Positions 2,972 through 45,181 of a stretch of DNA of 64,000 nucleotides are shown here, piece by piece. The stretch is from contig CAIOOA010000028.1 in assembly GCA_903859815.1 (NCBI GenBank), positions 1-64,000 of the forward strand, written 5' to 3'. The DNA is from an uncultured Methylococcaceae bacterium. Lineage in GTDB: Bacteria; Pseudomonadota; Gammaproteobacteria; Methylococcales; Methylococcaceae. Below the pieces are notes generated by a model. The model was not told the DNA's origin. It saw only the letters and a list, made by a program, of their open reading frames with translations, and did not search any database. Each line of letters starts with the position of its first letter. The first letter of the stretch is position 1. Made by a program: the position numbers and the translations under genes.

Positions 2972-4684
2972 ATGAAAATTGAAGCAAACGATAAAGAAGT
3001 TCGAGATATATTTTCCTTAGGATATTTCAAAATCCCTAGATTTCAAAGGCCATATTCTTGGGGGCATGATGAAGTAAATAACTTTTGGCAAGATGTTATT
3101 CAAAATAATAATGATCCTTATTTTATTGGCTCCATGGTTGTATATCAGGAAAACAAACCATATTTTGGGATAGTTGATGGGCAGCAACGATTAACCACGA
3201 TTACCTTGATTTTTGCAGCCATTAGAAATGCATTTCTTAAATTGGGTGAACAAAACTTAGCAAGAGGGATACATTTTTATATTGAAAAACCAAATATTGA
3301 TAACAAGGAAGAATTCATACTTAATTCAGAAACCTCATTCCCATACCTCCAAAACCACATACAAAGCTATAATGGCCTTCAAGTTCAATGTAATGTAGGG
3401 TCTGAAGAACAAAATCTTAAATATGCGTTTGACTTCATTGTAGATGGGCTAAACGCAGTTTTGCCACAATCAATATGTAGTGAAAAGCACTATCAACTAT
3501 GTCTTTTTGATGACAGTAAAGCTGATACTTTACAGAAGCTTAAAATGATTAGAGATAAAATCCTAGCATTAAAACTAGTATTTATACAATTGGACAACGA
3601 GGAAGATGCTTATTTAATATTTGAAACTTTAAATGCTAGAGGTCGTGACTTAACAACGTCAGATCTGGTTAAAAATCATTTACTTAAAAAATTGAAATCC
3701 AAAAATATACACAATGATCCTGCTAACATAATTTGGAATAGAATTTTGAAGCGTTTTGATGATTCAGGATTCCAAAATGGAATGGATTCATTCCTTTATC
3801 ATTTTTGGTTGTCTGGAAAAAGTTACACTACCGATAAGAACTTATTTTCTGAATTAAAAAAACAAGCAGATGATGAAGATAGTGCTCGAAAATTATTAGA
3901 TGAACTCCAGAAAAACGCCGATTATTACTTGAGTATTATTTCGCCCAGTACTTACAAGTGGACACCTGAACAATTAAATATAAAACAAACTTTAGAAGCT
4001 CTTGTATATTTTAATGTCAAACAACAATCCCCCATGGTATTATCACTTATCCGTGCATATAAAGAAAAGAAATTGTCTTTAAAAATGTTAACTACGACTT
4101 TGGAAAAAATTGAGTTTTTCCATTTTGTATTTAATTCAGTAACATCCCAGCGTTCTTCGGGCGGCATACAAACTCATTATTCAAAATATGCAATCATGCT
4201 AACTGAAGCAAATGGTAACCCTGAAGTCCAGAGCGTCATCAATGGTCTATTGTCAGGACTAAAAGATAGATTACCTAGTTATAATGAATTTGAGGCAACC
4301 TTTATAGAACTTAACTATACTTCAAGGAAAACAAAAAACAAATCAGTTATACGTTATGCGCTAAAAAAACAACTTGGTAACAATCCTAATGGACTAGCTA
4401 TTGATTATAATGCGATGAGTATAGAGCATATTATCCCAGAAGATAAAATAGAAGATTATTGTGATAGAAATGAGGAAATAGGAAATATAGGAAACCTCAT
4501 TCTTGTGGACAAGAAAACAAATTCAGAAGATTTAATTAATCTCGGATTTTATGAAAAAAAACGCATTTTACTTCAAAAAAACTATCCTTTGGATGATTTT
4601 ATTTTGAACACACATGAATGGAATATTGAAAAAATAAAAAGTAGAGCTAAATATTTAGCAAAAAAATTATATGATAACTGGTAA
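2972..4684 (+). CDS. DUF262/DUF1524 protein, GmrSD-like putative nuclease of a defence system
   Basis: A 570-aa protein with both halves of the GmrS/GmrD architecture on one chain. The N terminus has the DUF262 ParB-like motif IPRFQRPYSW and VDGQQRLTT (about residues 68-76), which in this family binds and hydrolyses nucleotide. The C terminus has the DUF1524 HNH-like nuclease motif SIEHIIPE (His 486) followed by IGNIGNLILV. GmrSD is a type IV system cutting modified phage DNA; related single-chain proteins occur in several defence systems. The gene is much more AT-rich than the genes around it and stands alone, suggesting recent transfer. The target is not deducible. Confidence 0.85.
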   Translation: MKIEANDKEVRDIFSLGYFKIPRFQRPYSWGHDEVNNFWQDVIQNNNDPYFIGSMVVYQENKPYFGIVDGQQRLTTITLIFAAIRNAFLKLGEQNLARGIHFYIEKPNIDNKEEFILNSETSFPYLQNHIQSYNGLQVQCNVGSEEQNLKYAFDFIVDGLNAVLPQSICSEKHYQLCLFDDSKADTLQKLKMIRDKILALKLVFIQLDNEEDAYLIFETLNARGRDLTTSDLVKNHLLKKLKSKNIHNDPANIIWNRILKRFDDSGFQNGMDSFLYHFWLSGKSYTTDKNLFSELKKQADDEDSARKLLDELQKNADYYLSIISPSTYKWTPEQLNIKQTLEALVYFNVKQQSPMVLSLIRAYKEKKLSLKMLTTTLEKIEFFHFVFNSVTSQRSSGGIQTHYSKYAIMLTEANGNPEVQSVINGLLSGLKDRLPSYNEFEATFIELNYTSRKTKNKSVIRYALKKQLGNNPNGLAIDYNAMSIEHIIPEDKIEDYCDRNEEIGNIGNLILVDKKTNSEDLINLGFYEKKRILLQKNYPLDDFILNTHEWNIEKIKSRAKYLAKKLYDNW

Positions 4685-5134: not shown

Positions 5135-5362
5135 ATGCAAACCCTACAACTACGCTTACCGGACTTCGTGGACATAGACACACAGGAATTGACACTGATT
5201 CTCGCCTCTCGCCTGTATGAACAAGGCAAGCTGTCCATCGGACAAGCCGCCGAATTGGCGGGACTACCCAAGCGGGCTTTCATGGAATTATTGGGCCGGG
5301 CCAATGTGTCGGCTTTTAATTATGACCCCGATGAGTTAGAGCGGGATATGCGCAATGCCTGA
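5135..5362 (+). CDS. UPF0175 family antitoxin
   Basis: A 75-aa protein with the UPF0175 (COG2886) pattern: a short N-terminal strand, LILASRLYEQGKLSIGQAAELAGL, then KRAFMELLGRANV and an acidic tail containing YDPDELERD. This is a helix-turn-helix-like antitoxin that pairs with a DUF3368 PIN-type toxin, and that gene follows with an 8-base overlap. The pair looks complete and undamaged, unlike the modules at 1407-2816. Antitoxins of this type usually repress their own operon; no operator was identified. Confidence 0.85.
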   Translation: MQTLQLRLPDFVDIDTQELTLILASRLYEQGKLSIGQAAELAGLPKRAFMELLGRANVSAFNYDPDELERDMRNA

Positions 5363-5813
5363 TATGCTATCCAATACCAGTTGCTTAATTGCATTGGATA
5401 ATATTAGACAATTGGATTTATTGCATAGCCTTTACGACATTATTCATATTTCCGAAGAAGTCGCGGCTGAGTTTGGCGTATTGGTTCCCGCTTGGATTAA
5501 GGTTCATTCGGTGCAGGATAAAACCAAACTGGATATTCTGCATAATCTAGTTGACTTGGGCGAAGCAAGCACTATCGCCTTAGCCTATCAATTCGATGAT
5601 GTAACCTTGATTCTCGATGACCGCAAGGCAAGGAAGCTGGCTGATAATCTAAAACTGCGTTTCACTGGCTTGTTGGGTGTTTTAATAAAGGCTAAGCAAA
5701 CTGGCATCATTGATTCTGTGGACAATGTCTTGGCTAGGCTTAAATCCGCTGGTTTTAGATTTTCTCCCGCCATGGAAATACAAGCATTGCGCTTGGCTGG
5801 CGAGTGGGAATGA
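5355..5813 (+). CDS. DUF3368 family PIN-domain toxin
   Basis: A 152-aa protein with the DUF3368 (COG2405) layout: SNTSCLIALDN near the start (usually SDTSPLIAL; here the usual Asp of DTS is Asn), LGEASTIALAY in the middle (acidic site), and LILDDRKARKLA before a C-terminal FTGLLGVLIKAK helix. These proteins are PIN-fold ribonuclease toxins. Start is ATG 5355, or the internal ATG 5364 giving MLSNTS. Overlap with the UPF0175 antitoxin implies coupled translation. The D-to-N change in the first motif could weaken metal binding. Confidence 0.85.
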   Translation: MPDMLSNTSCLIALDNIRQLDLLHSLYDIIHISEEVAAEFGVLVPAWIKVHSVQDKTKLDILHNLVDLGEASTIALAYQFDDVTLILDDRKARKLADNLKLRFTGLLGVLIKAKQTGIIDSVDNVLARLKSAGFRFSPAMEIQALRLAGEWE

Positions 5814-7144: not shown

Positions 7145-9238
7145 ATGCATATGTCCACGATACATCGAAATAATCACCGCAGTTTAGTTTGTGTGGATGC
7201 CCTGCGTTCGTCACCACACAAGCTAAACGGTAACATCATCGCGATGTTAGTTTCAGCACAGTTAGCATTGTTCGCCACATCCCCTGCCTTGGCAGAACCG
7301 GATGAGCGCATTGTCGAAAACCCACCCTTGCTGCAAGGTCGGACAGAAGCGGCACCGGGGTTAAAAATGATGTCCTTGCAAGCACCGGGACCTGGCCCAA
7401 AGATCGGAACCGAAAAACAGTTTGACCTGACCATCAAAAAAACCACCGGCAAACTTTTCAACCCCGCCAACCCAAAAGACCGGCCCTATGACACGGTGTC
7501 GTTGCGCAGCTATGTCGGGACCGATGTAGACCCAAACAGACCCTTTGTCGCACCTAGTATAGAAGTGTCGCCGGGTGATACCGTGCGCATCACCCTGCAT
7601 AACGAATTGGATAAGGACGACAGTTGCACGAGTTGGACAGGGGATGTGAACACGCCACATTGCTTTAACGGAACAAACCTTCATTCCCATGGGCTATGGG
7701 TCAGCCCGACTGGCAATAGCGACAACGTTTTATTGTCGATCAATCCGGGGGTTAATTTCCAATATGAATACAATATTCCCCCCGACCATCCCGCAGGGAC
7801 CTTTTGGTATCATTCGCATCGGCATGGTTCAACCGCTTTGCAAGTGTCCAGCGGCATGGCTGGCGCCATCGTTGTGAAGGGTGATCGTTTGCCGACTGCA
7901 AAAGATAACGGTGACATCGACACATTACTGAAAAACCCGAATGGTTTTCCCATGAAGGATCGGGTTTTAGTCCTGCAACAAATCCAATATTATTGTCAGA
8001 ATACCCAAAACCCTTGGGATTGCAGTGCTCCAAATGCTGTCGGTGTCATTGAGTCATACGACAATTTTGGCCCCGGCACATGGGGAGCTTCAGGCCGTTA
8101 CACCAGCATCAACGGCAGAATATTGCCTACGTTTTCGGCGAAAGCGGGTGAAATTGAACGTTGGCGTTTGATCCATGCGGGTGTGCGCGACACGATCAAT
8201 CTGGAGTTCAGGCGCTTAAAAGCCGGAGCGCCTAGCATCAATAGCTTGAAAGCAGCCGATGCAGACAGCTTCATTGCCACCAATTGCGTGGGTGACCCAA
8301 TCCCTTATCACGTTGTCGCCACGGACGGACTGACTAGGGCTTCAGCTTGGCAAACCACGCTGACAGCCTTTCAACCTGGCTACCGTAACGATGCCTTGGT
8401 GGTCTTCCCGGAAGCAGGCACTTATTGCGTCATCGATAGCGCAGCCCCAGCCTCAGCCACTGTCTCTCAAGCGGCGGAAAGCAGACAATTGCTCGGTGTC
8501 GTCGCCGCCAGCCCCGGTGAGGATGTCAGCAATATCCACGACTACCTGACGCAAAAACTTATCGCCGCCGCTGAGCAAACGATGTCGTCTTCGGTGAAAG
8601 CCAAGGTGGTGGCCGATCTGAAAGATGGGTTGAAATTGACAAGTTTCATACCTCATAACGATGTTATGGACAAAGAAATTACCGGCAAACAGGAATTGAC
8701 CTTCTTCATAGACACTAGTGACTACCATCCCATCAAGTTTGAAGTCAGCAACGATCTAGGAGCAAACTTCACCCCCAAACCATACGAACCCACGCGAATC
8801 GACCGAAGTTTGAAGCTTGGTGGTGTGGATGAATGGACCTTGCAATCGCAATTTGTCAGCCATCCGTTTCACATCCATGTCAACCCATTTCAGATCGTCA
8901 AAATTCTCGACCCCAGCGGTAAAGATGTCAGCTTGCCTACCGCAGTTGACGACTATGCGGGAGGAAACCCAGATCCTCAATATCCTGGATTGAAGAACGT
9001 ATGGAAGGATACGCTTTGGATAAAAAGCTTAATTGGCAATAGTGTTTGGGCAGACAAATGCAAAAAGGACCGTAATGCTTGCCTATACACAATCGTGGTA
9101 CGCACTCGCTATCAACGCTATATCGGCGAATTTGTGCTGCATTGCCATATTCTCGACCATGAAGACCAAGGCATGATGCAGAATGTCAGCATCGATCTGC
9201 CGAATGGTTTGGGTGGAACCGTGTCCAGCCATCATTAG
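7145..9238 (+). CDS. Multicopper oxidase, laccase-like, exported
   Basis: A 697-aa protein with all four copper-binding segments: HSHG (His 180, 182), WYHSHRHG (His 223, 225), HPFHIH (His 573, 576, 578) and HCHILDHEDQGMM (His 666, Cys 667, His 668, His 672, axial Met 677). These form the type 1 site and the trinuclear cluster that reduces O2 to water while oxidising phenols or metals. A hydrophobic stretch ending ATSPALA at about residue 50 looks like a signal peptide, so export is likely. ATG 7145 follows GAGGAG; ATG 7151 is an alternative start. It is the first gene of a same-strand set with tyrosinase, LodA-like and LodB-like genes. Confidence 0.92.
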   Translation: MHMSTIHRNNHRSLVCVDALRSSPHKLNGNIIAMLVSAQLALFATSPALAEPDERIVENPPLLQGRTEAAPGLKMMSLQAPGPGPKIGTEKQFDLTIKKTTGKLFNPANPKDRPYDTVSLRSYVGTDVDPNRPFVAPSIEVSPGDTVRITLHNELDKDDSCTSWTGDVNTPHCFNGTNLHSHGLWVSPTGNSDNVLLSINPGVNFQYEYNIPPDHPAGTFWYHSHRHGSTALQVSSGMAGAIVVKGDRLPTAKDNGDIDTLLKNPNGFPMKDRVLVLQQIQYYCQNTQNPWDCSAPNAVGVIESYDNFGPGTWGASGRYTSINGRILPTFSAKAGEIERWRLIHAGVRDTINLEFRRLKAGAPSINSLKAADADSFIATNCVGDPIPYHVVATDGLTRASAWQTTLTAFQPGYRNDALVVFPEAGTYCVIDSAAPASATVSQAAESRQLLGVVAASPGEDVSNIHDYLTQKLIAAAEQTMSSSVKAKVVADLKDGLKLTSFIPHNDVMDKEITGKQELTFFIDTSDYHPIKFEVSNDLGANFTPKPYEPTRIDRSLKLGGVDEWTLQSQFVSHPFHIHVNPFQIVKILDPSGKDVSLPTAVDDYAGGNPDPQYPGLKNVWKDTLWIKSLIGNSVWADKCKKDRNACLYTIVVRTRYQRYIGEFVLHCHILDHEDQGMMQNVSIDLPNGLGGTVSSHH

Positions 9239-9270
9239 TTTGGCGGTGCATTGCTTCGTTTAAATAGCCT

Positions 9271-9301
9271 AATAAGGGCGGGTTCTGAATCCGCCTTTAT
9301 T
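9271..9301 (+). terminator. Hairpin after the multicopper oxidase gene
   Basis: AATAAGGGCGG (9271-9281) pairs with CCGCCTTTATT (9291-9301) with one G-T pair and a 9-nt loop. The run of U after it is poor, so it may only attenuate and leave part of the transcript to reach the tyrosinase gene 49 bases on. Confidence 0.55.
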
Positions 9302-9349
9302 GGGTAAAAATGATCAAAACACTCACCCCAAACAGAGGAGAGAAGCTAT

Positions 9350-11455
9350 ATGTCATCAAAACATAAGATTAGTACAGGCTATCAGCGGGTTCGGCAAATT
9401 CTGAATGCCGCTGCTGGCGAAAGCAAAGCAGATTATGGCGGAATTGGGCGCTTCTGGGACCAAGGCGTCGATGTCCTCAAAACGGCTACCCTTTACGGTC
9501 ACAGGATGATTGCCCCGGAAACCCCGTCCTCCTGTTGCGGACATCTGCCGGGTGAGGTTTATCATCGTGGCGCGGCTTCTGGGCTAATCCGGGGGTTGAA
9601 AGGTGAAAAGCCTTTCGATGGCGAACAATTGCCACGCTTGCCATGGGATGGCAAGGCCGTTGCCTCTGAGGATATTGAATTTATCTCCGATTGGATAGAC
9701 CGGGGTTTACCAGAGGAAACCCATGAAGAGGTGATCGAAGTCCACCCATTGCAGCGTGAAAAGGATGAACCCATTACCATCACCCAGTGCGGCATGGTTG
9801 AGTTTGGGCTTGCCAGTGACTCGAATCGGAGACCTCCCCGACCCGGCGAACTGAAACAGCGCGTCAATCTGGATTGCATGGGTGAGCGCGAACTGAAAAG
9901 TTTGCGGCGGGTGTTCCGGCAAATCTACGATCTGAATCATTGGCCCGAAGACCGCCGCAGCTTCAACAACCAAGCACTGATCCATCAGAACCATTGCCAG
10001 CACGGTTGGGAACGCTTCTTGACCTGGCATCGTGCCTATCTTTACGAGTTCGAACAAAACCTACAAGATTTCGACCCCAACGTGACTTTGCCTTATTGGG
10101 ATTGGACCATGCCGCAATATCGACCAGAGGAACCGGAAAAAGGCTGGATTATCCCTAAATCATTCCAAGCCTTTCTAAGCCTGGAAGCCTGCGAAGAAAT
10201 GATTGCCAAACTGAACCCAGAACCAAAGCCCCATCAAAAAGCCGCTTTTCTCGATTTGGCAAGGACCAAGCGCTTATTTGTCTCCCAAGGCAAGTTTTTC
10301 CGTTATGTCTATAACACGATTGGCTATACCGATCTGAACCCAAGCCCGGACTGTCAGAACCGTCGGCATATGATTTACGCACTGCTGGAATCAAACCCTT
10401 TGTGGTATCCATTGCGCTACCCCGCCGAATACAAAGCGGGTAAGACCATCAACCAAGAGATTCACTATCACTATCCTTCCGCCAATGATATAGCTCAAAT
10501 ATTGAGCCTGAACAATTTCCGCGACTTTGGCGGCGGTAGCATCTATGATTCGGCTTTTGGATTTTTGGACCAGAACCCGCATAACACCTTGCATATTTGG
10601 ACAGGTGGGGAAAATCCCGACAGCGATAAAGATAGCCGTTATGCCGATGAATGCTTGGTCAGCTTAAAACCTTCCGCACCGGTTGCCCTGCTCGGTGAAA
10701 ACCGCAATAACATGGTGCGCGCAGGCGGGCGCCGTTTTCATACTCGCGAAGACATGTACTCGCAACCCACCTACGGAGACATGTTCAGCAATCTCACCGC
10801 ATCCTATGACCCGGTATTTTGGCCGATTCATGTCAATGTTGACCGACTGTGGTGGGAATGGCAGCAAATCAACCCGAATGGAATGCCGGTCGAACTGGAT
10901 GCCATCCTTTCCCCTTGGAACTATACCCAACGGGATACTTTGAACATTGCCCGCTTTGGCTATGAATATGTGCGAAGCACTTATTTCATGCCGGTTGGAT
11001 TGGAAGCGCCTGTGAGCCGGTTTATTTCCAAGCCCATTCCGATAACGCCACAGGTTCAAGGATTCCGCAAAGCGGAAATCAGGCTGCATTGGGTGCCCCA
11101 ATTGGCTCGTTCTTGTTTTGTCCGTGCCTTCTTAAATCAGCCGGGAGCGGATGCTCATACGGATTGGCGAGGCAACCCTCATTTCGCGGGATATCTGGCA
11201 ATTTTCGGACATGGAGCCTGTTATGGCGGACCCGGCCATTGCGACATTCCCCCGCCTAGGGCTCGCGAGTACGACCATCGGACTCGAAGCCACAATATGC
11301 CGCGCAATCATCGCATTGACGTGACCGATTGCGCCAGAAAACTGCTGGAAACCACCCAAGAGTTGCAAATCACGCTGGTTGTCATCGGCGCAGATTATGA
11401 GGAAGACATTGATCTCCTCAAGCTTGAAGGGGTTTCGCTGAATTTCCTCGACTGA
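9350..11455 (+). CDS. Tyrosinase-family dicopper protein with an extra N-terminal domain
   Basis: A 701-aa protein whose central part has the tyrosinase copper sites. CuA: candidate His 212/215, His 218 and His 227 in [19 protein letters not shown], followed by PYWDWT. CuB: His 411 and 415 in [10 protein letters not shown] and His 494 in [15 protein letters not shown]. Such enzymes hydroxylate phenols or oxidise catechols to quinones. Residues 1-150 are an added domain with an SSCCGH motif and [13 protein letters not shown] then [11 protein letters not shown], resembling c-type cytochrome or planctomycete-type domains but without CxxCH. Residues about 560-701 form a further C-terminal domain. 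No signal peptide is seen. It lies 17 bases before the LodA-like gene. Confidence 0.88.
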
Positions 11456-11472
11456 TTGCGGGAGACACTCAC

Positions 11473-13740
11473 ATGGCCACTTATAAAATACATCCCGGCA
11501 TAGGCATAGCCCGGCTCGGCAACAGCCCGACCGAATTCTATATTGCCCCAGAAATGCCCGCCAACCTACCCATTGAATGCGATGCCAATGGCAATCCAAT
11601 GCTAACCCCTGACCTGTCTGGCCCGGTGCTGGTCAAAAGCTTCAAAGACGAACAAGGCCGCATCAAACGTCAAGCCGCCCGTTTTCAGGTGTTTGTCTAC
11701 GACTGTGACAACCCTGATGGACGACCACTGAAAATCGGCGATGCTGTCGAGGGGGGTGGCAATCATGGCAAATTGATCGACATTCAGTGGCGGGTTTATC
11801 TCGCCAACAAAAAAGCGTCTTGGTATGAGTTCAATGCGCGCGCTGGTGAACATGGCTATGCTGACAAGCATCCTCGCCGCAACGCCGACATTATTGATCG
11901 TGACCGTTTAATCATCGACCCCGGCCCGCGTAGCGTCAATCTGTCTTCACGGCGCAGAGCCAGTTTTGACCGTTCCGGTGGCGGAACCTATGCCACGACC
12001 TTTCCACCCCTCGGTTTGAAACCCAACGACATCGACACCTTGGGGGATATTCTGACCGACGATGACGGCAGACTCCTAGTTTTGGGTGGGCATGGCAATT
12101 CGGGCAGCGAGAAATCAGGTCCGGGCGAACCTCATATTGGCAGTTATGCCAATAATGATGGTTGGTACGACGATGTGTCAGACGGGCCGGTGATGGCCAG
12201 ACTCGTCATGTACTCTACGCAAGTGGAGCAAACCCGTTACATTGATGTTGAATATCCGGCTTGGGTGGTGGTCGGTTATCCCCGCTTTGTTCCACAAATC
12301 CTCGATATGATCACCATGGACGATCTGGTTTACGATATGTTCCTTCGCGAATTTGCCGACAATACCTGTATTTATGGACGCTTGGACCGTTTCGACCCGC
12401 CCGAGAACATCTCGATTCATAACCAGAATGAACTAAGCCAATGGAAAGCCAGTCGTTTGACGTGGAACAAGGACTACAAGCCATGGTTCTACCGCGATAT
12501 TTGGCCAATTTTATTCCGGCCCAACGAGTTCATTTATCTTAGTGATATATTGGCTCAATCCAACTTTCCGCATGACCAAGAAAAACGGGGTACCTTCAAC
12601 CCCTATTTATTGGGCCAGACACCCAAAGCCAAGGATCAGTTAACGCAGAAAAAAGACTATGACTTGCAACTTGCCAAGAGCCTGTTGGCGGGACGGGAAG
12701 CCCAGCAAGGCGAAGCCCGCATCGAAACCCGAAAATCCCTGCAAGCGAAACAGGATGATGACTTCGACCCTGACCCTTACCGGCCCATGCGCCGCTTCCT
12801 GTTTGACCTATTGCGCCGTAGGGGCGAGGAAAATGATTTCAAGCTAGAAGACAAGATCGGAAGTCGTGTCCACAACTTGCCTTTGATGCCCCTGCTTTGT
12901 GGCGATAACCCATTGAACAACGAAGCCCCGTCAAAATTCCTCAGACTCACCGATTACCAATTGTTCATCCTCAGGCAATGGGCCGAAGGTCATTTCATTA
13001 ACGAAATGGAAGAAGGCTGGATCAATGGCAATACTTATCCTGTCTACTTTCCTTATCCAATCGGGCAACCCAAAACCGGGCGGGCATTGGACCGGGGTGT
13101 GCTGGGCAATGTGCTGGGAGGCGCTTTCTGCCCCGGTGGGGAAATTGGCTGGGTCATGCGCAATCCATCCATTTATTGGGAGCCCTATCGCATCAAGGCA
13201 GACCGCCAGTGGTCAGATTTTCTTCAATCCGCTGCCCAATCTAACAAGCAGCATGGCAGCGCCCTTGATGATTTCACGTTCAGCATGGAAAACCCACTCA
13301 GTCATGACAGTGATTTCAGCACTGGACTCCAACCGGGCGATTTGACCAAATCCATGGCCTTGCCCTGGCAAGCTGATTTTAACGAGTGTACGACCAATCC
13401 GACCAACATCACCTATGCCGATTGGAACGAAATCAACCCTGAAAGCGAAAACGACCAGCGGCTTATCCAAGATGAAAAAACTTGGGACACTTTGTGGTGG
13501 CCCGCCCATAGGCCGCTTCAATCCAATGAACTGACCGGATACGATGCCAAAGGCAACCCCGAAACCAAATGGACCAATTGGAGCAGGGGCATCCAACAAA
13601 CCAATGCGGGTGATTTCAAAATGGTCACTGAATGGTGGAAACTCGGCTTTATCATCCGCAACCCCTACCTTTCTGCCGAAGCCGACCGTACCCCGACTCA
13701 AGGGGCGGACGATAACCGTTATTACAGCATTGATAGCTAA
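11473..13740 (+). CDS. LodA/GoxA-like quinoprotein amino-acid oxidase
   Basis: A 755-aa protein of the LodA family (start IHPGIGIARLGNSP, the family signature). Characterised members oxidise lysine or glycine using a cysteine tryptophylquinone cofactor, releasing H2O2 and ammonia. The cofactor tryptophan segment is present (ALPWQADFNEC, Trp 632), as is TLWWPAHRP. The cysteine side reads LGGAFCPGGEIGW with Cys 553. In relatives as I recall them, the crosslinking Cys precedes the GG, a position that is Val 547 here. A LodB-like maturation flavoprotein overlaps the 3' end, as expected. No signal peptide; LodA itself is exported without one. The substrate cannot be told from sequence. Confidence 0.88.
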   Translation: MATYKIHPGIGIARLGNSPTEFYIAPEMPANLPIECDANGNPMLTPDLSGPVLVKSFKDEQGRIKRQAARFQVFVYDCDNPDGRPLKIGDAVEGGGNHGKLIDIQWRVYLANKKASWYEFNARAGEHGYADKHPRRNADIIDRDRLIIDPGPRSVNLSSRRRASFDRSGGGTYATTFPPLGLKPNDIDTLGDILTDDDGRLLVLGGHGNSGSEKSGPGEPHIGSYANNDGWYDDVSDGPVMARLVMYSTQVEQTRYIDVEYPAWVVVGYPRFVPQILDMITMDDLVYDMFLREFADNTCIYGRLDRFDPPENISIHNQNELSQWKASRLTWNKDYKPWFYRDIWPILFRPNEFIYLSDILAQSNFPHDQEKRGTFNPYLLGQTPKAKDQLTQKKDYDLQLAKSLLAGREAQQGEARIETRKSLQAKQDDDFDPDPYRPMRRFLFDLLRRRGEENDFKLEDKIGSRVHNLPLMPLLCGDNPLNNEAPSKFLRLTDYQLFILRQWAEGHFINEMEEGWINGNTYPVYFPYPIGQPKTGRALDRGVLGNVLGGAFCPGGEIGWVMRNPSIYWEPYRIKADRQWSDFLQSAAQSNKQHGSALDDFTFSMENPLSHDSDFSTGLQPGDLTKSMALPWQADFNECTTNPTNITYADWNEINPESENDQRLIQDEKTWDTLWWPAHRPLQSNELTGYDAKGNPETKWTNWSRGIQQTNAGDFKMVTEWWKLGFIIRNPYLSAEADRTPTQGADDNRYYSIDS

Positions 13741-14830
13741 GGCTTTCGATGTCTTCATAGTCGGCGGTGGGCCGGCGGGTGCTGCGATGGCCATTTCCTT
13801 ACAGGCTGTCGCACCTGATCTGACTGTTTGCATTGCAGACATGGGACGGGACGGGCTATTTCGCGTTGGCGAATCCGTCCCGCCGCTGATTAAACCTTTT
13901 CTTGAACATTTGGGGGTTTGGCAAGCCTTTTTACGGGACAGGCATTGCCAATCCTTTCGCACCGTCAGTGCATGGGGCAGCCCTGAACTCATCAGCAACG
14001 AATTTTTCCTAAACGCCCATAACACGGGATGGCGCTTGGATAGAAACCGCTTTGATGCGATGTTGTTAGAAGAAGCCAAACAGCAAGGCGCTACGATTCT
14101 GAATGCAAAAATAAGCTCTGCCTACCATGATTCAGGACAATGGAGGATTGACTGCGGAGAATCCGCTGTTTATACAGCTCGCTGTGTCGTCGATGCCACC
14201 GGGCGTTCGGCTTTGGTTTCACGGCTGGCCGGCATTAAACCCGTCAACTATGACCGATTGATTGCCAGCACCGTATTTGTTGAAGACAAGGCAAACCCGA
14301 ACGTGACAGGGGCAGATGCGGCCTTGATAGAATCGTTCCAGCAAGGTTGGTGGTATACCGCCGCCACCCCCGGCAACCGGAGAGTCGTCGCATTAATGAC
14401 GGATGCCGATGTTGCCCACCGTTTACGGGCAAATCGATTGGAAGAATGGATGGCTTGCCTTGCCGAAACAACCCATATCAAGGCCGTACTACACAATAGC
14501 CAGCCACTTGGACCACCCCAGCTATGGGCTGCCAGTTCCCGTCTGCTTCAAGGCAAAGGGCCGCAAAGTTTGATAGCAGTCGGTGATGCCTATTCACGCT
14601 TCGACCCCCTGTCATCCCAAGGCATTATCAAAGCCTTGCGCTCTGCTATTTTCGGGTCTTATGCGCTGGCCGATTGGATGTTGCGCTCGGATAGTTCCGG
14701 CTTCTCCCGCTATGAAGCGCTGATGCAACGTGAATTTGCTTCGTATAGAAACACTTTGCGCAACTTCTACTGGGAGGAAATGCGTTGGCCAGATTCCGCA
14801 TTTTGGCAGCGGCGGCATGGGCAGTCATAA
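13730..14830 (+). CDS. LodB-like FAD-dependent oxidoreductase (quinone cofactor maturation)
   Basis: About 366 aa if it starts at TTG 13730, inside the end of the LodA-like gene (11-base overlap). This start puts the Rossmann motif FIVGGGPAGAA at the N terminus, as expected. The frame is open further upstream, but those residues are antisense-like filler from the LodA coding region. A second FAD motif, GDAYSRFDPLSSQG, lies near residue 285. The fold is that of geranylgeranyl reductase/halogenase-type flavoproteins. LodB is required to build the cysteine tryptophylquinone of LodA in Marinomonas, and this gene is expected to serve the preceding protein. Overlap implies coupled translation. Confidence 0.85.
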   Translation: MIAKAFDVFIVGGGPAGAAMAISLQAVAPDLTVCIADMGRDGLFRVGESVPPLIKPFLEHLGVWQAFLRDRHCQSFRTVSAWGSPELISNEFFLNAHNTGWRLDRNRFDAMLLEEAKQQGATILNAKISSAYHDSGQWRIDCGESAVYTARCVVDATGRSALVSRLAGIKPVNYDRLIASTVFVEDKANPNVTGADAALIESFQQGWWYTAATPGNRRVVALMTDADVAHRLRANRLEEWMACLAETTHIKAVLHNSQPLGPPQLWAASSRLLQGKGPQSLIAVGDAYSRFDPLSSQGIIKALRSAIFGSYALADWMLRSDSSGFSRYEALMQREFASYRNTLRNFYWEEMRWPDSAFWQRRHGQS

Positions 14831-28568: not shown

Positions 28569-29549
28569 ATGTTTATCTATCCAACTGTTTCTTGTCTCGT
28601 ATCGGCGCTGGCAATTGCTGTCATGCTAGGCTTAAAACCTTCGCTACCATTGGATCACCCTAATGACCGTTCTTTGCATGAAACTCCGACCCCAAGGACT
28701 GGGGGTTTGGCGATAATGCTAGGCTCAGGAATAGGGTGGGCACTCATCTGGCCTCCGTCAGAGCTGATTCCGATGCTAGTGTTGGCGCTTGCCCTGAGCG
28801 GATTTTGTTTTTTTGATGATCTGTGGGGATTGACTAGAACGTTTCGCTTCATTGTTCACTTAGCGGTGGCAGCACTTTTGATCGGACTGTCGCGCAATAA
28901 TTTAGAAAACGGCATTCAAATTGCTGTCGCTGTGCTTGCCGTGGTTTGGATGACCAACTTGTACAACTTCATGGATGGTGCCGACGGTCTCGCTGGCGGT
29001 ATGGCCACGATTGGCTTTGGAATATACGCCCTGGCAGGCTTTCAGGGTGGAAAGCCCGAATTAGCTTCGATAGCCACTTGCATAGCAACAGCGTCAGCAG
29101 GATTCCTATGGTTCAATTTCAGCCCCGCCCGGATATTTATGGGCGATGCCGGTTCAGTACCCCTAGGATTTCTCGCCTCTGCAATAGGAATCGCCGGATG
29201 GCAATACGGGTTATGGCCGATTACTTTTCCCATCCTTCTGTTTTCCCCTTTCATCGTCGACGCCTCTGTGACGATGGCTAACCGTGCATTGCGTGGGGAT
29301 AAATTTTGGCAAGCTCACCGCGACCATTACTATCAACGTTTAATCCGTATGGGTCTTGGACATCGAAACACATCCTTGCTTGAATATGGCTTAATGCTGA
29401 CCTGCGGCGTTTCTGCCTATGCAATACGCGACTCCTCTCTCAACATACAAATGTATGTCATTTTTGGCTGGGCCATCACCTACGGGTGTTTGATTTATCT
29501 GATTGACAAGGCATGGAAATCATACTCAAAGGAGCCAACAGAAATATGA
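28569..29549 (+). CDS. Polyprenyl-phosphate sugar-1-phosphate transferase (WecA/WbpL family)
   Basis: About 326 aa from ATG 28569; a GTG at 28539 is an alternative, but TATAAT at 28531 would leave it too near the transcript start. Membrane enzyme loading the first sugar phosphate onto undecaprenyl phosphate. Motifs: NDRSLHETPTPRTGG, FFDDLWGL (metal-binding Asp pair), NLYNFMDGADGLAGG, RIFMGDAGSVPLGF and the C-terminal HRDHYYQRL. Coupled by ATGA to a WbpM-like dehydratase, as in Pseudomonas WbpL/WbpM, so QuiNAc or FucNAc-type sugars are plausible (inference). Confidence 0.9.
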   Translation: MFIYPTVSCLVSALAIAVMLGLKPSLPLDHPNDRSLHETPTPRTGGLAIMLGSGIGWALIWPPSELIPMLVLALALSGFCFFDDLWGLTRTFRFIVHLAVAALLIGLSRNNLENGIQIAVAVLAVVWMTNLYNFMDGADGLAGGMATIGFGIYALAGFQGGKPELASIATCIATASAGFLWFNFSPARIFMGDAGSVPLGFLASAIGIAGWQYGLWPITFPILLFSPFIVDASVTMANRALRGDKFWQAHRDHYYQRLIRMGLGHRNTSLLEYGLMLTCGVSAYAIRDSSLNIQMYVIFGWAITYGCLIYLIDKAWKSYSKEPTEI

Positions 29550-31405
29550 GGCACCGATCGTTACTCGTCATGCTACATGACGCGATTGCGGCTATACTTG
29601 CTTGGTGCCTAGCCTACCTACTCCGCTTCAATTTTGACATCCCGGACCATTGGGTTAAAGGGATGCTTGATACATTATGGTTGGTTTTGCCTGTAGAAAT
29701 TGCCGCCTTCTGGATATATGGCCTTTATCGAGGCATGTGGCGATTTGCCAGCCTACCCGACTTAAAAAGAATATTGCTGGCAGTCGGACTCAGTTCGCTC
29801 GCCGTTCCGACCACACTGTTTATGTATCACCGGCTTTCACAAACGCCAAGGGCTGTACTTGTACTTTCCCCATTGCTGCTTGTATTTTTTATGGGAGGCA
29901 GTCGTTTCCTGTATCGGTCATTCAAAGACGGGCATATATTCACATTCCGATCACTGGAACCCACACCTGTAATACTTATGGGCGCAGGATCAGCCGCATC
30001 TCTACTACTAAGGGACTTGTCAGGAAACTCCACATGGAGAGTGGTTGGCTTGCTTGACGACGATAAAAGCAAAAAAGGACGCCAAATTCACGGAGTCACG
30101 GTGCTTGGGCCTTTGTGCGAAGTGAGCAAATATGCACGAAGACTCGATGTCAGCCAAGTAATCATCGCAATGCCATCAGCCTCAGCGGGAACTAGGAGGA
30201 AAGCAATGGAATTGGCAACAGATGCCGACCTTTCGGTGTTGACGGTGCCTGGTTTTGACGATTTACTGTCAGGTAAAGTTTCTATTTCTCAAATTCGTAA
30301 GGTAGAATTAGACGATCTCCTGGGACGCGAGCCTGTCAGCCTAGATATAGATGGTCTTCAAGGACTGCTGACAAAAAAAAATGTGCTAGTGACAGGCGCA
30401 GGAGGTTCTATTGGATCAGAACTTTGCAGACAGATTGCGAAATTCGAACCTTCCCAACTGATAATGCTAGAGGTTAATGAGTTTGCCATCTATAAGCTTG
30501 AACAAGAATTTATCGAGCGATTCCCTACCATTCAGATCGTTTGCGCACTGGGTGATGTTAAAGACTCAGGCAGGGTGGGTCAAATCATGCAGCAGTTTAA
30601 GCCTAAAGTGGTATTTCATGCCGCAGCCTACAAACATGTGCCAATGCTCGAAAACACAAATGCCTGGGAGGCAGTACGCAATAATGTGTTTGGGACGTAC
30701 ACCATAGCCAAGGCTTCAATTGATGCCGAAGTGGAAAAGTTTGTATTGATATCCTCAGACAAAGCTGTCAATCCCACCAATGTCATGGGCACTAGCAAAC
30801 GTCTTGCAGAAATGATATGTCAAACTCTACAAAATAACGTAAAAACACGCTTCGCAATGGTACGGTTTGGAAATGTACTTGGTAGCACAGGTAGTGTGAT
30901 ACCTAAATTTCGGGAACAAATTGCACAGGGAAAACCGATAACAGTGACACATCCAGATATTATCCGTTACTTTATGTCAATAACGGAGGCTGCTCAATTG
31001 GTATTACAGGCAGGAGTTATGGGTAAGGGGGGGGAGATTTTCGTATTAGAAATGGGGAAGCCAATCAAAATACTGGACTTAGCACGAGACATGATACGAT
31101 TATCAGGGTTTCATGAAGACGAAATCAAAATAAATTTCACTGGCTTACGACCAGGCGAAAAGTTATATGAAGAATTGCTAGCAGATGACGAACTCACCGA
31201 GAAAACTAGGCATCCAAAACTTCGGATTGCCAAAGCTCGAACTATGGATGAAGAGAAATGGCTGTCAGATTTTCTCGATTGGTTGAAACAGCAAACAATC
31301 CCAACAGATATAGAAGTACGAAATGCGCTTCAACATTGGGTACCCGAATATTCTCCAACAATAAATACAAATTCTGTCAATATTAAAGCAGAGGCTAGTT
31401 ATTAA
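29546..31405 (+). CDS. wbpM: UDP-sugar 4,6-dehydratase/epimerase, WbpM/CapD type, membrane-bound
   Basis: About 619 aa from ATG 29546, which overlaps the preceding TGA (ATGA) and follows AAGGAG. Four N-terminal membrane segments, then a first nucleotide-binding region (VILMGAGSAASLLLRDL), then the catalytic SDR domain: VLVTGAGGSIGSELCRQ, VFHAAAYKHVPMLE, LISSDKAVNPTNVMGTSKR (the SDKAVNP variant used instead of YxxxK) and RFGNVLGSTGSV. Members make UDP-4-keto-6-deoxy GlcNAc for QuiNAc, FucNAc or related sugars. Confidence 0.92.
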   Translation: MRHRSLLVMLHDAIAAILAWCLAYLLRFNFDIPDHWVKGMLDTLWLVLPVEIAAFWIYGLYRGMWRFASLPDLKRILLAVGLSSLAVPTTLFMYHRLSQTPRAVLVLSPLLLVFFMGGSRFLYRSFKDGHIFTFRSLEPTPVILMGAGSAASLLLRDLSGNSTWRVVGLLDDDKSKKGRQIHGVTVLGPLCEVSKYARRLDVSQVIIAMPSASAGTRRKAMELATDADLSVLTVPGFDDLLSGKVSISQIRKVELDDLLGREPVSLDIDGLQGLLTKKNVLVTGAGGSIGSELCRQIAKFEPSQLIMLEVNEFAIYKLEQEFIERFPTIQIVCALGDVKDSGRVGQIMQQFKPKVVFHAAAYKHVPMLENTNAWEAVRNNVFGTYTIAKASIDAEVEKFVLISSDKAVNPTNVMGTSKRLAEMICQTLQNNVKTRFAMVRFGNVLGSTGSVIPKFREQIAQGKPITVTHPDIIRYFMSITEAAQLVLQAGVMGKGGEIFVLEMGKPIKILDLARDMIRLSGFHEDEIKINFTGLRPGEKLYEELLADDELTEKTRHPKLRIAKARTMDEEKWLSDFLDWLKQQTIPTDIEVRNALQHWVPEYSPTINTNSVNIKAEASY

Positions 31406-31936
31406 TGCATTTAAAAACAGTTAATTAAATCTTATCTTTTTACTACTTAAATCACAAAATGGAAAACTATCGCATATTTTCCCAAAAAGGGCCTACACTT
31501 AACCATTAGTTATCTTTAGAAAAGGTTGTGCATCAATTGTCTACAGAATCTCAACAACAAGTTAACGAAAAACATGATAATTTGATGCAAGATATATAGA
31601 CTGTAAATCCATGAGCGTCATCTTCAGTGGTTTGTCGATTAAAATTTTAATATTATGAATCAATAACATACACATAGACCGAAATGAATGGCAATGTTTG
31701 CGAATCAAACCAATACCACCACACAAGCGAAATATGATAAAGTAATGTGTCTTAGTTGGAGCGACAATCATTTTTGAAAAAACTGGCTGACTCTGGACTT
31801 TAACTAGAATCGTTCGCGCAACTTACCTACATGAAGGCCACTATTAGAATATGACAACCATCATTATACTATCCCTTATTAATGACCACCTAAAGCATAC
31901 AACGCAATCGTATCTGGCGATAGAGGTTAATCAATA
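31406..31936. other. Intergenic region before the ABC transporter genes
   Basis: 531 AT-rich bases with no gene that I can support. Small open frames, including 31562-31771 on the minus strand, have no recognisable pattern. Sequence composition changes here from about balanced to strongly AT-rich, marking a possible junction of the polysaccharide locus. A promoter for wzm is expected just upstream of 31937. Confidence 0.4.
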
Positions 31937-32755
31937 ATGCGAAACTTTTCAATATCACCAAAAGAAATGATACTAAGCTTTTGGCGAAACAGAAAACTAA
32001 TCAAAACCCTAGTTAAGCGTGAAGTGGTCGGTAGATATAGAGGCTCCGTCATGGGAATGATGTGGTCATTTTTTAACCCTATCCTAATGCTGGCAGTTTA
32101 CACCTTTGTGTTTAGCGTCGTTTTTAAAGCTCGTTGGAATGTTGGAAGTGACTCTAAGACAGAATTTGCACTTGTCCTTTTTGCAGGATTGTTAGTCTTT
32201 AATCTATTTTCAGAATGCATAAACCGATCACCGATACTTATTTTAGCAAACGCTAACTATGTTAAGAAAGTAGTATTTCCTTTAGAAATATTACCATGGG
32301 TAACCCTTGGAACAGCCATGTTCCACATGATAATTAGCTTTATGGTGTGGTTAATTTTTTATGTTGTTTTCTTTGGCCAGCCACAATTGACAATTTTATT
32401 CTTTCCGATTATTTTATTACCATTATTACTGATAACAATGGGGATTTCTTGGTTACTAGCATCATTAGGCGTATACTTAAGAGACGTTGCCCAGATAATG
32501 GGTATCGTCACAACAACTTTGATGTTTCTATCTCCTCTTTTTTACCCTTTATCATCCTTACCAGAGAACTACCAAGAATTGCTACGGCTTAACCCCTTGA
32601 CAACCATACTTGAACAGTCAAGAGCAGCACTAATCTGGGGGCAGTTACCTGATATGATAAATCTCGGAATCAACATTACGGTAGCATTAGTTATCTCGTG
32701 GTTAGGATTTGCATGGTTTCAAAAAACACGAAAGGGGTTTGCAGATGTCCTCTGA
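31937..32755 (+). CDS. wzm: Polysaccharide ABC transporter permease Wzm
   Basis: A 272-aa ABC-2 type permease with six hydrophobic segments and the family start (LIKTLVKREVVGRYRGSVMGMMWSFFNPILML). Also seen are EILPWVTLGTAMFHMIISF and the region LRDVAQIMGIVTTTLMFLSPLFYP, typical of Wzm/KpsM/TagG. It moves undecaprenyl-linked glycan across the inner membrane with Wzt, whose gene overlaps its end by 11 bases. Confidence 0.94.
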   Translation: MRNFSISPKEMILSFWRNRKLIKTLVKREVVGRYRGSVMGMMWSFFNPILMLAVYTFVFSVVFKARWNVGSDSKTEFALVLFAGLLVFNLFSECINRSPILILANANYVKKVVFPLEILPWVTLGTAMFHMIISFMVWLIFYVVFFGQPQLTILFFPIILLPLLLITMGISWLLASLGVYLRDVAQIMGIVTTTLMFLSPLFYPLSSLPENYQELLRLNPLTTILEQSRAALIWGQLPDMINLGINITVALVISWLGFAWFQKTRKGFADVL

Positions 32756-34103
32756 AATTGCAATAGAAGTTGATAATCTAAGCAAATGTTATCAAATCTA
32801 TAACAAACCCAGGGATAGACTTTGGCAAATGATAGCCAGAAGTCGCAAAAAGTTTTATCGTGAATTTTGGGCAATAAATGATGTTAAGTTTACAATTAAA
32901 AGAGGGGAAACTGTCGGAATAATAGGGCGTAATGGATCCGGAAAATCAACACTATTGCAATTAATATGTGGAACTCTTAATCCGACTTCAGGGAGTATTC
33001 TGGTGAACGGACGAGTCGCTGCATTGCTAGAACTAGGAGCAGGATTCAATCCAGAATTTACAGGCAGGGAAAATGTATACCTTTCTGCTTCCTTATATGG
33101 ACTAAGTCACAATGAAATCTCAAGCCGATTTACCCAGATTACAGACTTTGCAGATATTGGTCAATTTATAGACCAACCTGTAAAAACTTATTCAAGTGGC
33201 ATGTTTGTACGCTTAGCATTTGCTGTTATTGCCCATGTGGATGCGGATATTTTAGTTGTGGATGAAGCTTTATCAGTGGGGGATGCATATTTTGTTCAGA
33301 AATGCATGAGATTCCTCCGAGAATTTATGGATAGAGGGACTCTTCTCTTTTGTAGCCACGATACCAGCGCAGTTGTCAATCTATGTACATCGGCAATATT
33401 ATTGAATCAAGGAAGGTTAGAAATGATGGGAAATCCAAAAAAAGTTGCGGAACGTTATCTTGCCGCCTTATATGAATCGATGCAAGGTGAAAGTAATGTT
33501 AATAACGCAGATAGTATTTCACAAGAAGAAGAAGAATACGATATAGAAGAAGATTTGAGCAATACAGATGAATATCGAGATGCTAGAGAATCATTAATTA
33601 ATTCTTCTACGCTTCGCAATGATATCCAAATTTTTCGTTTTAATCCGGACAGCAATGCTTTCGGAACAGGTGCTGCAAAAATTACATCTGTTAAAATACT
33701 CGATAAAGAAGGCAATCCTTTAGCATGGGTAATAGGTGGAAATAGTGTAGTATTAGAAATAAGATGTATCGCATATAAAGAAATTAATAGTCCAATTTTA
33801 GGTTTTCATTTCAAAGATCGACTTGGACAGGTTTTATTTGCGGATAATACATGTATAACCTACATGTTTGAACCACTGACATTAAAGACTGGTCAGGAAT
33901 GTGTCGCTCGTTTTAACTTTACCATGCCAATTTTGTCATCAGGAAATTATAGTATCTCTCCTGCAATAGCTGAGGGAACACAAGAAAATCATGTACAACA
34001 TCATTGGATACACGACGCCTTGATAATAGAAGCTCATGCGAGTTCAGTATGTTTTGGTGTTTTTGCTGTACCAATGAAAAGTATTAAAATGTTTACTGTT
34101 TAA
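32745..34103 (+). CDS. wzt: Polysaccharide ABC transporter ATPase Wzt with C-terminal glycan-binding domain
   Basis: About 452 aa from ATG 32745 (MSSEIAIEV), preceded by AAAGGGG and overlapping wzm. ATPase: IIGRNGSGKSTLL Walker A, TYSSGMFVRLAFA signature, DILVVDEALSVGD Walker B and the switch His in CSHDTSAV. Residues from about 295 onward form the Wzt C-terminal beta-sandwich (SVKILDKEGNPL.. through HHWIHDALIIE), which in E. coli O9a recognises the capped non-reducing end. Its presence implies that the exported glycan is terminated by a chemical cap before export. Confidence 0.94.
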   Translation: MSSEIAIEVDNLSKCYQIYNKPRDRLWQMIARSRKKFYREFWAINDVKFTIKRGETVGIIGRNGSGKSTLLQLICGTLNPTSGSILVNGRVAALLELGAGFNPEFTGRENVYLSASLYGLSHNEISSRFTQITDFADIGQFIDQPVKTYSSGMFVRLAFAVIAHVDADILVVDEALSVGDAYFVQKCMRFLREFMDRGTLLFCSHDTSAVVNLCTSAILLNQGRLEMMGNPKKVAERYLAALYESMQGESNVNNADSISQEEEEYDIEEDLSNTDEYRDARESLINSSTLRNDIQIFRFNPDSNAFGTGAAKITSVKILDKEGNPLAWVIGGNSVVLEIRCIAYKEINSPILGFHFKDRLGQVLFADNTCITYMFEPLTLKTGQECVARFNFTMPILSSGNYSISPAIAEGTQENHVQHHWIHDALIIEAHASSVCFGVFAVPMKSIKMFTV

Positions 34104-34134
34104 TAACAACCAATTTTTATTATCGAGGTTTTTT

Positions 34135-40803: not shown

Positions 40804-41207
40804 TCATTTTTTGTGTTAATAAAAATAAGTAGTCAAGGATAAGTCCACGGGCGTACCAATGACCCATGACATTGATTTTAATGCTTGTCTTGTACCAGAT
40901 TATTTTTGTTTAGCTACTTACCTCAATACCAGAATAGCAAGTTGTTTCAGTTCAATATAGAAAACTGTGATTTTGACATGGAGCTCCAGATCCTACACTC
41001 GGGCATGGTAGAGTTTCGAAGCATATATGCAATTTAAATCTTGGCGATCCCTGCTGGTAAGGCTTTTATTTTTACTTTAGATGTAAATCCAGCTAATCAG
41101 AAATGTTTCAAATAGAAATTATGTATGGTAACCCACTAAATTTGAGAACATCGAGTATATATACAGAGAGTTACCATTTTATTTATTAACAGATTACATT
41201 CATTCTT
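40804..41207. other. Intergenic region inside the polysaccharide locus
   Basis: 404 bases with no open frame that I can support on either strand. A more GC-rich patch near 40840-40870 and 40975-41060 differs from the AT-rich surroundings and could be a relic of an inserted element, but no inverted repeats or transposase motif were seen. Confidence 0.35.
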
Positions 41208-43340: not shown

Positions 43341-43426
43341 TATATTCAAACCTTTAATTATTTCATCTTTTCCTTTGATTATTTTCCGTATTACAATATA
43401 ATTCTCAGTTTATTTTCACAGAAATT

Positions 43427-44131
43427 ATGAAAGCTTTAGTACTTGCTGGTGGGTTGGGAACTAGACTTAAACAGCGCGTTCCTGATTTACCAAAACCCAT
43501 GGCTCCTATAGCTGGGCGTCCCTTTCTAGAATATATTTTAGATCGCCTCATTTTGGGTGGAATCACTGAAATAATTCTTTCAGTTGGCTATCGAGCAGAT
43601 GTCATAACTTCTCATTTTAAAGATGTATATAAAAATACAAAGATTACCTATGCTATTGAATCAGAGCCTCTAGGTACGGGGGGCGCAATAGCCAATGCCT
43701 TAAGTGGACTCAATGTTAATAACATACTTATTGTTAACGGTGACACTTTAGTAAATCTTGATTATTCCAATTTAATTAAATGGTATTTAGCAACTCCTGA
43801 TTCTATTGCAATTGTATTGAAGGAAATATCTGATATTAATAGATATGGTTCTATTATTGTAAATGAGGGAATAATTACAGGATTTCATGAAAAGGGACAA
43901 ACCGGACACGGGCTGATTAATGCTGGCGTATATCTTATCTCAACATCAATTTTTAATAATTATTCCTTGAATGGCTCTTTTAGCCTAGAAAGAGATATAT
44001 TGCAAAAGAATTGTTCAATTTTGTGTGCACGGGCTTTTATAACCAATTCTTATTTTATCGATATTGGAATCCCCGATGACTATGAAAAAGCACAATACGA
44101 ATTACCAAAGCTTATACCTTTATATAATTAG
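43427..44131 (+). CDS. Sugar-phosphate nucleotidyltransferase (HddC-like)
   Basis: A 234-aa nucleotidyltransferase. The active site begins MKALVLAGGLGTRLKQRVPDLPKPMAPI, with the metal/nucleotide segment ILIVNGDTLVNLD and a late FIDIGIPDDYEKAQ. Length and the IDIGIPDDY ending match D-glycero-D-manno-heptose-1-phosphate guanylyltransferase (HddC) and related enzymes. It would supply an activated sugar to the locus. No heptose isomerase or kinase gene is in the window, so the sugar is uncertain. Confidence 0.85.
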   Translation: MKALVLAGGLGTRLKQRVPDLPKPMAPIAGRPFLEYILDRLILGGITEIILSVGYRADVITSHFKDVYKNTKITYAIESEPLGTGGAIANALSGLNVNNILIVNGDTLVNLDYSNLIKWYLATPDSIAIVLKEISDINRYGSIIVNEGIITGFHEKGQTGHGLINAGVYLISTSIFNNYSLNGSFSLERDILQKNCSILCARAFITNSYFIDIGIPDDYEKAQYELPKLIPLYN

Positions 44132-44203
44132 CCAAACAATCTTACATAACAACTTATTCATTGGCTTATTATCCTCTTTTATTTCCGTGCAGTGCAAACC
44201 AAC

Positions 44204-45166: not shown

Positions 45167-45181
45167 AATTATTCATTCAAC

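Follow-up and report, generated by a model that had tools for sequence, protein, structure and literature searches.

Introduction

The LodA-like oxidases of group ID, whose cofactor is cysteine tryptophylquinone (CTQ), are known from operons in which a tyrosinase and a multicopper oxidase (MCO) are encoded together with lodA and lodB, and in which a small gene of 138–142 amino acids (aa) lies between lodA and lodB in all cases but Saccharophagus degradans (Campillo-Brocal et al. 2015, PMC4417212). In Marinomonas, the tyrosinase and the MCO are encoded away from LodA (PMC4417212), which bears out the statement of the first-pass annotation that the three enzymes stand at separate loci there. Two further systems share parts of this equipment. 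In Sinorhizobium meliloti GR4, mcoA and mepA are both needed for full melanin formation, and deletion of both abolishes melanin (PMC7010606), while PvdP is reported to have a beta-barrel domain at its N-terminus and a tyrosinase domain at its C-terminus, between which an inhibitor binds (PMC9569983). Here, we describe a locus of this kind from an uncultured Methylococcaceae bacterium (GCA_903859815.1), in a stretch of 64,000 nucleotides (positions 1 to 64,000 of contig CAIOOA010000028.1) hereafter called the window. The locus occupies window positions 7145–14830 and consists of four open reading frames (ORFs) on the plus strand, encoding an MCO, a tyrosinase, a LodA-like protein and a LodB-like protein, all of which are open.

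Like the group ID operons of, for example, Bradyrhizobium japonicum USDA6 and S. degradans, the window holds an MCO gene and a tyrosinase gene near a lodA-like gene that encodes the CTQ cysteine and tryptophan, with a lodB-like gene downstream of it. Most operons of the group have the small gene between lodA and lodB, which is deleted in the window copy; its absence is not disqualifying, because the published group includes S. degradans, which is also without it (PMC4417212). On the evidence of its sequence, we assign the locus to the published group ID, so that its arrangement has been on record since 2015. What is new here is the deletion, the ranking of core against loose members of the gene set, its wide phyletic range, and the case for the fifth protein as a tyrosinase partner. 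The mcoA-mepA cluster of S. meliloti GR4 shares with the locus an MCO that is 54% identical over its full length (685 aa) and a tyrosinase gene beside it, and encodes a small protein 51% identical to that of the window's nearest relative; it differs in having no LodA or LodB and in its shorter tyrosinase, MepA, and the window itself lacks the small gene. LodA and LodB of Marinomonas mediterranea (L-lysine 6-oxidase) have in common with the window the LodA_N and LodA_C domains, the CTQ residues and a LodB-type maturase encoded downstream, but the two LodA proteins are distant (phmmer 171 bits, in two separate stretches) and the Marinomonas operon contains neither tyrosinase nor MCO.

A Deletion between lodA and lodB

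The nearest relative (G002 = L025 = L030), whose tyrosinase is 98% identical to that of the window, has the small gene, and exactly 505 bp are missing from the window in comparison with it, between ...AGCATTGA and TAGCTAAGG. The deletion took the 3' end of lodA, the intergenic region and the entire small gene (138 aa). As a result, LodA of the window ends 23 residues before LodA of the nearest relative, and the TTG start codon of LodB arises at the deletion junction and exists only through it. The small gene was not found in a search throughout the window's genome, and the same search gave strong matches in three congeners; the gene is present in all three cassette-bearing congeners. The window therefore appears to carry a derived copy of the cassette, from which the small gene was lost by one deletion. 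The first-pass annotation had read the last three genes as tightly packed. A gap of 17 bp between the tyrosinase and lodA genes and, if TTG 13730 is the start, an 11-bp overlap between lodA and lodB are indeed present (the MCO and tyrosinase genes are 111 bp apart), but the overlap is a scar and not the original packing, because the 505-bp deletion joined the two genes. Likewise, the positions, strand and identities given there for four clustered genes hold, but a fifth, small gene belongs to the set and has been deleted here. As a natural deletion of this gene, the window offers a natural comparison with the congener that retains it. The start of lodB lacks an ATG at the expected place; TTG 13730 fits the relatives, and a longer ORF can be drawn mechanically from 13544. 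In the nearest relative, near 11099 of L025/L030, no ATG, GTG or TTG stands just before the flavin adenine dinucleotide (FAD) motif in the frame of LodB; the LodB of that relative may start in an unusual way or contain an error.

Such a deletion could have left a pseudo-operon in decay, and the lost gene is kept in 39 of 41 comparable loci. The ratios of nonsynonymous to synonymous substitution (dN/dS) against the nearest relative are 0.09 for the MCO, 0.05 for the tyrosinase, 0.06 for LodA and 0.21 for LodB, the last being the highest and standing at the upper end of the range of control pairs (0.10–0.21). Decay of LodB after the deletion is unsupported, since its value falls within that range. 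All four genes are under purifying selection with their active-site residues intact, the four frames are open, and LodA of Mesorhizobium naturally ends near the point where LodA of the window ends, for which reason LodA was probably unharmed; S. degradans, too, does without the small gene (PMC4417212). We consider decay very unlikely: there is no sign of it, and the deletion may be recent.

Table 1. Features of the locus, in window coordinates.
Feature	Coordinates	Strand	Basis
McoA-type multicopper oxidase (MCO), 697 aa	7145..9238	+	Pfam, Cu-ligand conservation, McoA identity
Hairpin, 18-bp, MCO/tyrosinase intergenic	9267..9305	+	-26.6 kcal/mol, z -6.5
Long type-3 copper tyrosinase, 701 aa	9350..11455	+	Pfam, invariant ligands, model match
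LodA-like CTQ oxidase (putative), 755 aa	11473..13740	+	Pfam, alignment to LodA 3WEU, CTQ residues
Codon of C639, counterpart of LodA C516 (CTQ cysteine)	13387..13389	+	alignment to 3WEU
Codon of W676, counterpart of LodA W581 (CTQ tryptophan)	13498..13500	+	alignment to 3WEU
Junction of 505-bp deletion	13733..13734	.	comparison with nearest relative
LodB-like flavoprotein (putative CTQ maturase), GxGxxG FAD motif	13730..14830	+	NCBIfam, start context, conserved residues

Core and Loose Members of the Gene Set

A tyrosinase alignment, run in a single scan against 84,980 species genomes, yielded 48 loci, which span six phyla (Pseudomonadota, Acidobacteriota, Cyanobacteriota, Verrucomicrobiota, Planctomycetota and Nitrospirota). 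Since the neighbourhood of tyrosinase and LodA recurs in these 48 loci, it is not a matter of chance, and the tyrosinase adjoins LodA in every locus long enough to tell. The small gene lies inside the locus in 38 of the 41 loci with matches to both LodA and LodB; in a 39th case (L056) another contig of that genome carries it, immediately following a 3' part of LodA. The MCO is present in 36 of the 48 stretches, where it may stand upstream, downstream or on the opposite strand, and it is absent from at least five loci that extend about 10 kb to either side. In a distant gammaproteobacterium (L092), the order MCO-tyrosinase-LodA-small-LodB is kept at about 30–54% identity. The pairwise distances of the tyrosinase, LodA, LodB and small proteins correlate with one another (rho 0.53–0.69, Mantel 0/200), and the correlation of MCO with tyrosinase distances is lower, at 0.24. 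By these comparisons, tyrosinase-LodA-small gene-LodB forms a near-constant core, and the MCO is the loose member of the set. The search of other genomes that the first-pass annotation had proposed has accordingly found a conserved neighbourhood, but the MCO, which headed the cluster as first described, is its least tied gene. In a class-wide sample, six more genomes had a LodA of another kind, none of them beside this tyrosinase. Beyond the five families, no other family recurs widely across the loci. In some Mesorhizobium (L023:3659-5701, L059), genes for a Nif11-like leader peptide and a radical S-adenosylmethionine (SAM) epimerase stand just upstream of the cassette; genes of this type, for ribosomally synthesised and post-translationally modified peptides (RiPPs), were rejected as a part of the system, being found in Mesorhizobium alone and not recurrent. 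A phage origin was also rejected, as a search of phage sequences gave no tyrosinase match.

The Small Protein as a Probable Tyrosinase Subunit

The small protein that the window has lost matches no named family in Pfam or NCBIfam. Its AlphaFold model is an eight-stranded beta-barrel of high confidence (mean predicted local distance difference test (pLDDT) score 91.5), and the closest solved folds are designed barrels, residues 176–282 of the alpha subunit of quinohemoprotein amine dehydrogenase (QHNDH), and avidins. QHNDH is the other CTQ enzyme to be compared here, as its QhpG resembles LodB of the window, and the alpha-subunit segment superposes on the small barrel (1jmx_A, Z 13.0, root-mean-square deviation (rmsd) 2.4), but avidins and designed barrels score about equally. 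A part in a QHNDH-like complex was rejected, as hhalign against PF14930 gave a probability of 2.4%, with shuffled controls scoring as well, and a search of the window's genome for PF14930 found no match. Kinship with avidins was rejected likewise: the Foldseek matches are mostly streptavidins at E 3e-3 or weaker with rmsd 4–7, and only the fold is shared. PvdP does not figure among the structural matches listed for the barrel, a listing that weighs neither for nor against it.

The genomic company of the small protein is more informative. It is found in 107 plasmid records, mostly rhizobial, few of which are in common with the 35 plasmid records returned by a LodA search. The order MCO-small-tyrosinase occurs in S. 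meliloti GR4, S. fredii and Mesorhizobium AR10, tyrosinase-small in Burkholderia pyrrocinia, small-MCO-tyrosinase in R. lusitanum (L113), and the small gene followed by a tyrosinase-like ORF in R. leguminosarum A1; R. etli p42d has MCO-small with no tyrosinase next door. The GR4 cluster is mcoA-C770_GR4pB024-mepA, in which C770_GR4pB024 is the small gene. On plasmid pOM4 of M. onobrychidis, a 513-aa protein has the small protein as its N-terminal domain (33%, E 4e-19) and in turn matches PvdP at full length (residues 3–482, E 3e-90). Because it stands beside tyrosinases without LodA and is fused in M. onobrychidis, the small protein is probably a detached beta-barrel subunit of tyrosinase. If so, this role would explain a conserved, uncharacterised protein across six phyla. 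On plasmid pSU277_3 of Sinorhizobium medicae (L123:3129-11805), a match to the PvdP-like tyrosinase domain lies within about 7 kb of a LodA/GoxA gene, on the other strand.

The link to PvdP also allows a different product to be envisaged. A tyrosinase with a PvdP-like barrel might act on a peptide or metabolite and oxidise a tyrosine-type phenol in it, and LodA might deaminate an amine of the same molecule, yielding a cyclised quinone-amine in place of melanin. PvdP itself matures the pyoverdine chromophore from a peptide (PMC9569983), the small protein has a homologue in the N-terminal domain of the PvdP-like fused protein, and in M. onobrychidis pOM4 (L112:4986-8547), outside Pseudomonas, the gene for this fusion immediately precedes a different LodA/GoxA gene and a flavoprotein gene, with no group ID tyrosinase; the Nif11 leader and radical SAM genes adjoin some Mesorhizobium copies. 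However, no non-ribosomal peptide synthetase, precursor peptide or transporter recurs by the cassette, where only the five families do, the RiPP genes were seen in Mesorhizobium alone, and the tyrosinase of the window is of a different type from PvdP. The barrel and tyrosinase of the cassette are comparable to PvdP only by way of the M. onobrychidis fusion, as the cassette encodes its barrel in a gene of its own and has a tyrosinase of another type; the window has no barrel gene, and its tyrosinase aligns to other tyrosinases. Maturation of a chromophore in this manner seems unlikely to us, and we are equally doubtful of its fuller form, in which a two-subunit tyrosinase (a catalytic chain and a detached PvdP-like barrel) and a CTQ oxidase would act on one molecule or peptide to give a discrete quinone-amine chromophore and not bulk melanin or peroxide. 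Were a two-subunit enzyme real, the small protein of group ID and of the rhizobial melanin clusters would be a general tyrosinase subunit.

The Copper Enzymes

The tyrosinase is built of an N-terminal extension of about 165 aa, a central tyrosinase domain and a C-terminal beta domain, and has no obvious signal peptide by eye. It matches Tyrosinase PF00264 (3e-35, 123 bits), and the candidate ligand histidines H212/H215, H218, H227, H411, H415 and H494 are invariant in 48 of 48 tyrosinases. The C-x-H motif (C216, H218) and N412, the asparagine following the first CuB histidine, are invariant too. The domain and six histidine ligands, the first being H212 or H215, identify it as a type-3 copper tyrosinase. 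A structural model resembles the Bacillus megaterium tyrosinase (Z 21 over residues 167–543); its central region is moderately confident (mean pLDDT 74), and it does not fix the first ligand as H212 or H215. The MCO matches Cu-oxidase_3 and Cu-oxidase_2 (7e-15, 1e-13), with complete copper-ligand motifs (H180/H182, H223/H225, H573/H576/H578, HCHxxxH at 666–672, and M677), the histidines and cysteine of which are kept in 38 of 38 homologues. These four motifs and the full-length similarity to McoA of GR4 identify it as an MCO of the McoA type. It bears an apparent N-terminal export signal, as judged by eye. The hairpin after the MCO gene lacks a long T run, is present also in the nearest relative (z -6.1) and is not retained in the next relative (G001); it is a possible attenuator, partial terminator or mRNA stabiliser.

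The LodA-like Oxidase and Its Putative Maturase

The LodA-like protein matches LodA_N (7e-61) and LodA_C (4e-41), scoring 332 bits against LodA NF038172 (curated cut-off 600 bits) and 165 bits against GoxA NF038173 (cut-off 750 bits). For the LodB-like protein, NCBIfam ranks the maturases LodB (1e-79), GoxB (1e-67) and QhpG (5e-56), the top model, LodB NF038171, giving 268 bits against an equivalog cut-off of 400. As no score reaches a curated equivalog cut-off, the proteins are identified to family level, which does not establish a lysine oxidase, a glycine oxidase, CueO or MelC2. In an alignment to LodA (3WEU), its CTQ residues C516 and W581 have their counterparts in C639 and W676, and its D512 and Y211 in D635 and Y225. 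C639 is kept in 43 of the 44 LodA-like proteins compared, W676 in each of the 43 rows not gapped at that position, and D635 and Y225 in 44 of 44. Neither the LodA-like nor the LodB-like protein has an obvious signal peptide by eye. In a LodA tree, in which some long branches meet and the reference sequences of PMC4417212 are not included, a branch with 98% support separates the 43 LodA-like proteins that have the tyrosinase as a neighbour from 7 whose loci lack it; LodA of the window groups with that of Bradyrhizobium and other tyrosinase-linked LodA. The window's genome holds a second LodA/LodB pair of another kind (contig C276, L028:4601-7616), without this tyrosinase nearby.

Two further functions turn on LodA. 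The tyrosinase or the MCO might help with the first hydroxylation of the LodA tryptophan, a step thought to be copper dependent (PMC7876137), and the tyrosinase and LodA genes adjoin in almost all copies. Yet other LodA and GoxA groups mature with a LodB-type partner alone, and the MCO and the small protein are also found beside tyrosinases where LodA is absent, which leaves such assistance in CTQ formation the most improbable of the explanations considered. Alternatively, the locus might serve as an antibacterial or biofilm source of hydrogen peroxide (H2O2) supplied by LodA, with the copper oxidases limiting phenol or copper toxicity. Both LodA and AlpP owe their antimicrobial action to H2O2, and members of groups IB and IC are linked to biofilm H2O2 (PMC4417212); the CTQ residues are intact in the window. 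But lysine oxidase was not detected in the group ID bacterium S. degradans (PMC4417212), the window protein reaches little over half of the LodA cut-off, and peroxide alone would leave the obligate tyrosinase unexplained. A peroxide source is in our view distinctly unlikely.

A Proposed Pathway to a Phenolic Product

The reading that we favour, with moderate confidence, is that the locus joins a phenol-oxidising copper module like that of McoA/MepA with a CTQ amine oxidase and the flavoprotein that matures it. LodB would complete the CTQ cofactor on LodA, which would then oxidatively deaminate a primary amine, probably not L-lysine. The tyrosinase would convert a phenol to an o-quinone; in most relatives, the small barrel would be docked to the enzyme as a subunit. 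The exported MCO would oxidise diphenols and/or Cu(I). Quinones, the aldehyde or imine and any H2O2 could then give a phenolic product that is melanin-like or cross-linked. Family membership is the basis on which we infer tyrosinase activity, CTQ formation, amine oxidation and pigment. The copy in the window probably still makes all four enzymes, with a tyrosinase that is impaired or else functions in the absence of the barrel that normally accompanies it. Among the products proposed in the first-pass annotation (a quinone-amine, a melanin-like pigment or a peroxide source), the melanin-like pigment is the easiest to defend, given an MCO 54% identical to McoA, which makes melanin together with MepA, a route shown only in S. 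meliloti GR4. Should the small protein prove to be a tyrosinase subunit, CTQ enzymes of methanotrophs, nitrifiers, rhizobia and Acidobacteriota would be linked with phenol chemistry.

Several points weigh against this proposal. No member of the group ID-type operons has a demonstrated activity, and the same product as that of MepA is not assured, since the tyrosinase of the window has the copper motifs alone in common with MepA. The enzymes may not meet, as the MCO looks exported and the tyrosinase, LodA and LodB have no obvious signal, and the MCO may be transcribed apart from the other three genes, because the strong hairpin intervenes. In three unrelated lineages (Rudaea, a Rhodospirillales metagenome-assembled genome and Singulisphaera), the place of the MCO is held by an unrelated exported protein with one CxxCH motif (523–598 aa, no Pfam match; L043:8216-9868, L050:1319-3112 on the minus strand, L054:7830-9398). 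The barrel domain alone, when searched by sequence, gives no PvdP match, and its homology to PvdP is therefore drawn through the fused protein. Finally, the deletion is seen in one assembly; the relatives are metagenome bins, and the window's assembly is possibly one too.

Surrounding Region

Consensus promoters and terminators at the locus are no commoner than in shuffled sequence. Upstream, at window positions 2972–4684 and 5355–5813, a GmrSD-type restriction endonuclease and a DUF3368 protein are encoded; the left flank differs from that of the nearest relative, because alignment to that relative starts only at about 6730. Further downstream, window positions 29513–46976 form a surface polysaccharide region of low G+C content with genes for a Wzt-type ATP-binding cassette (ABC) exporter, inside which a methyltransferase/glycosyltransferase protein of 2222 aa is encoded at 34135–40803.

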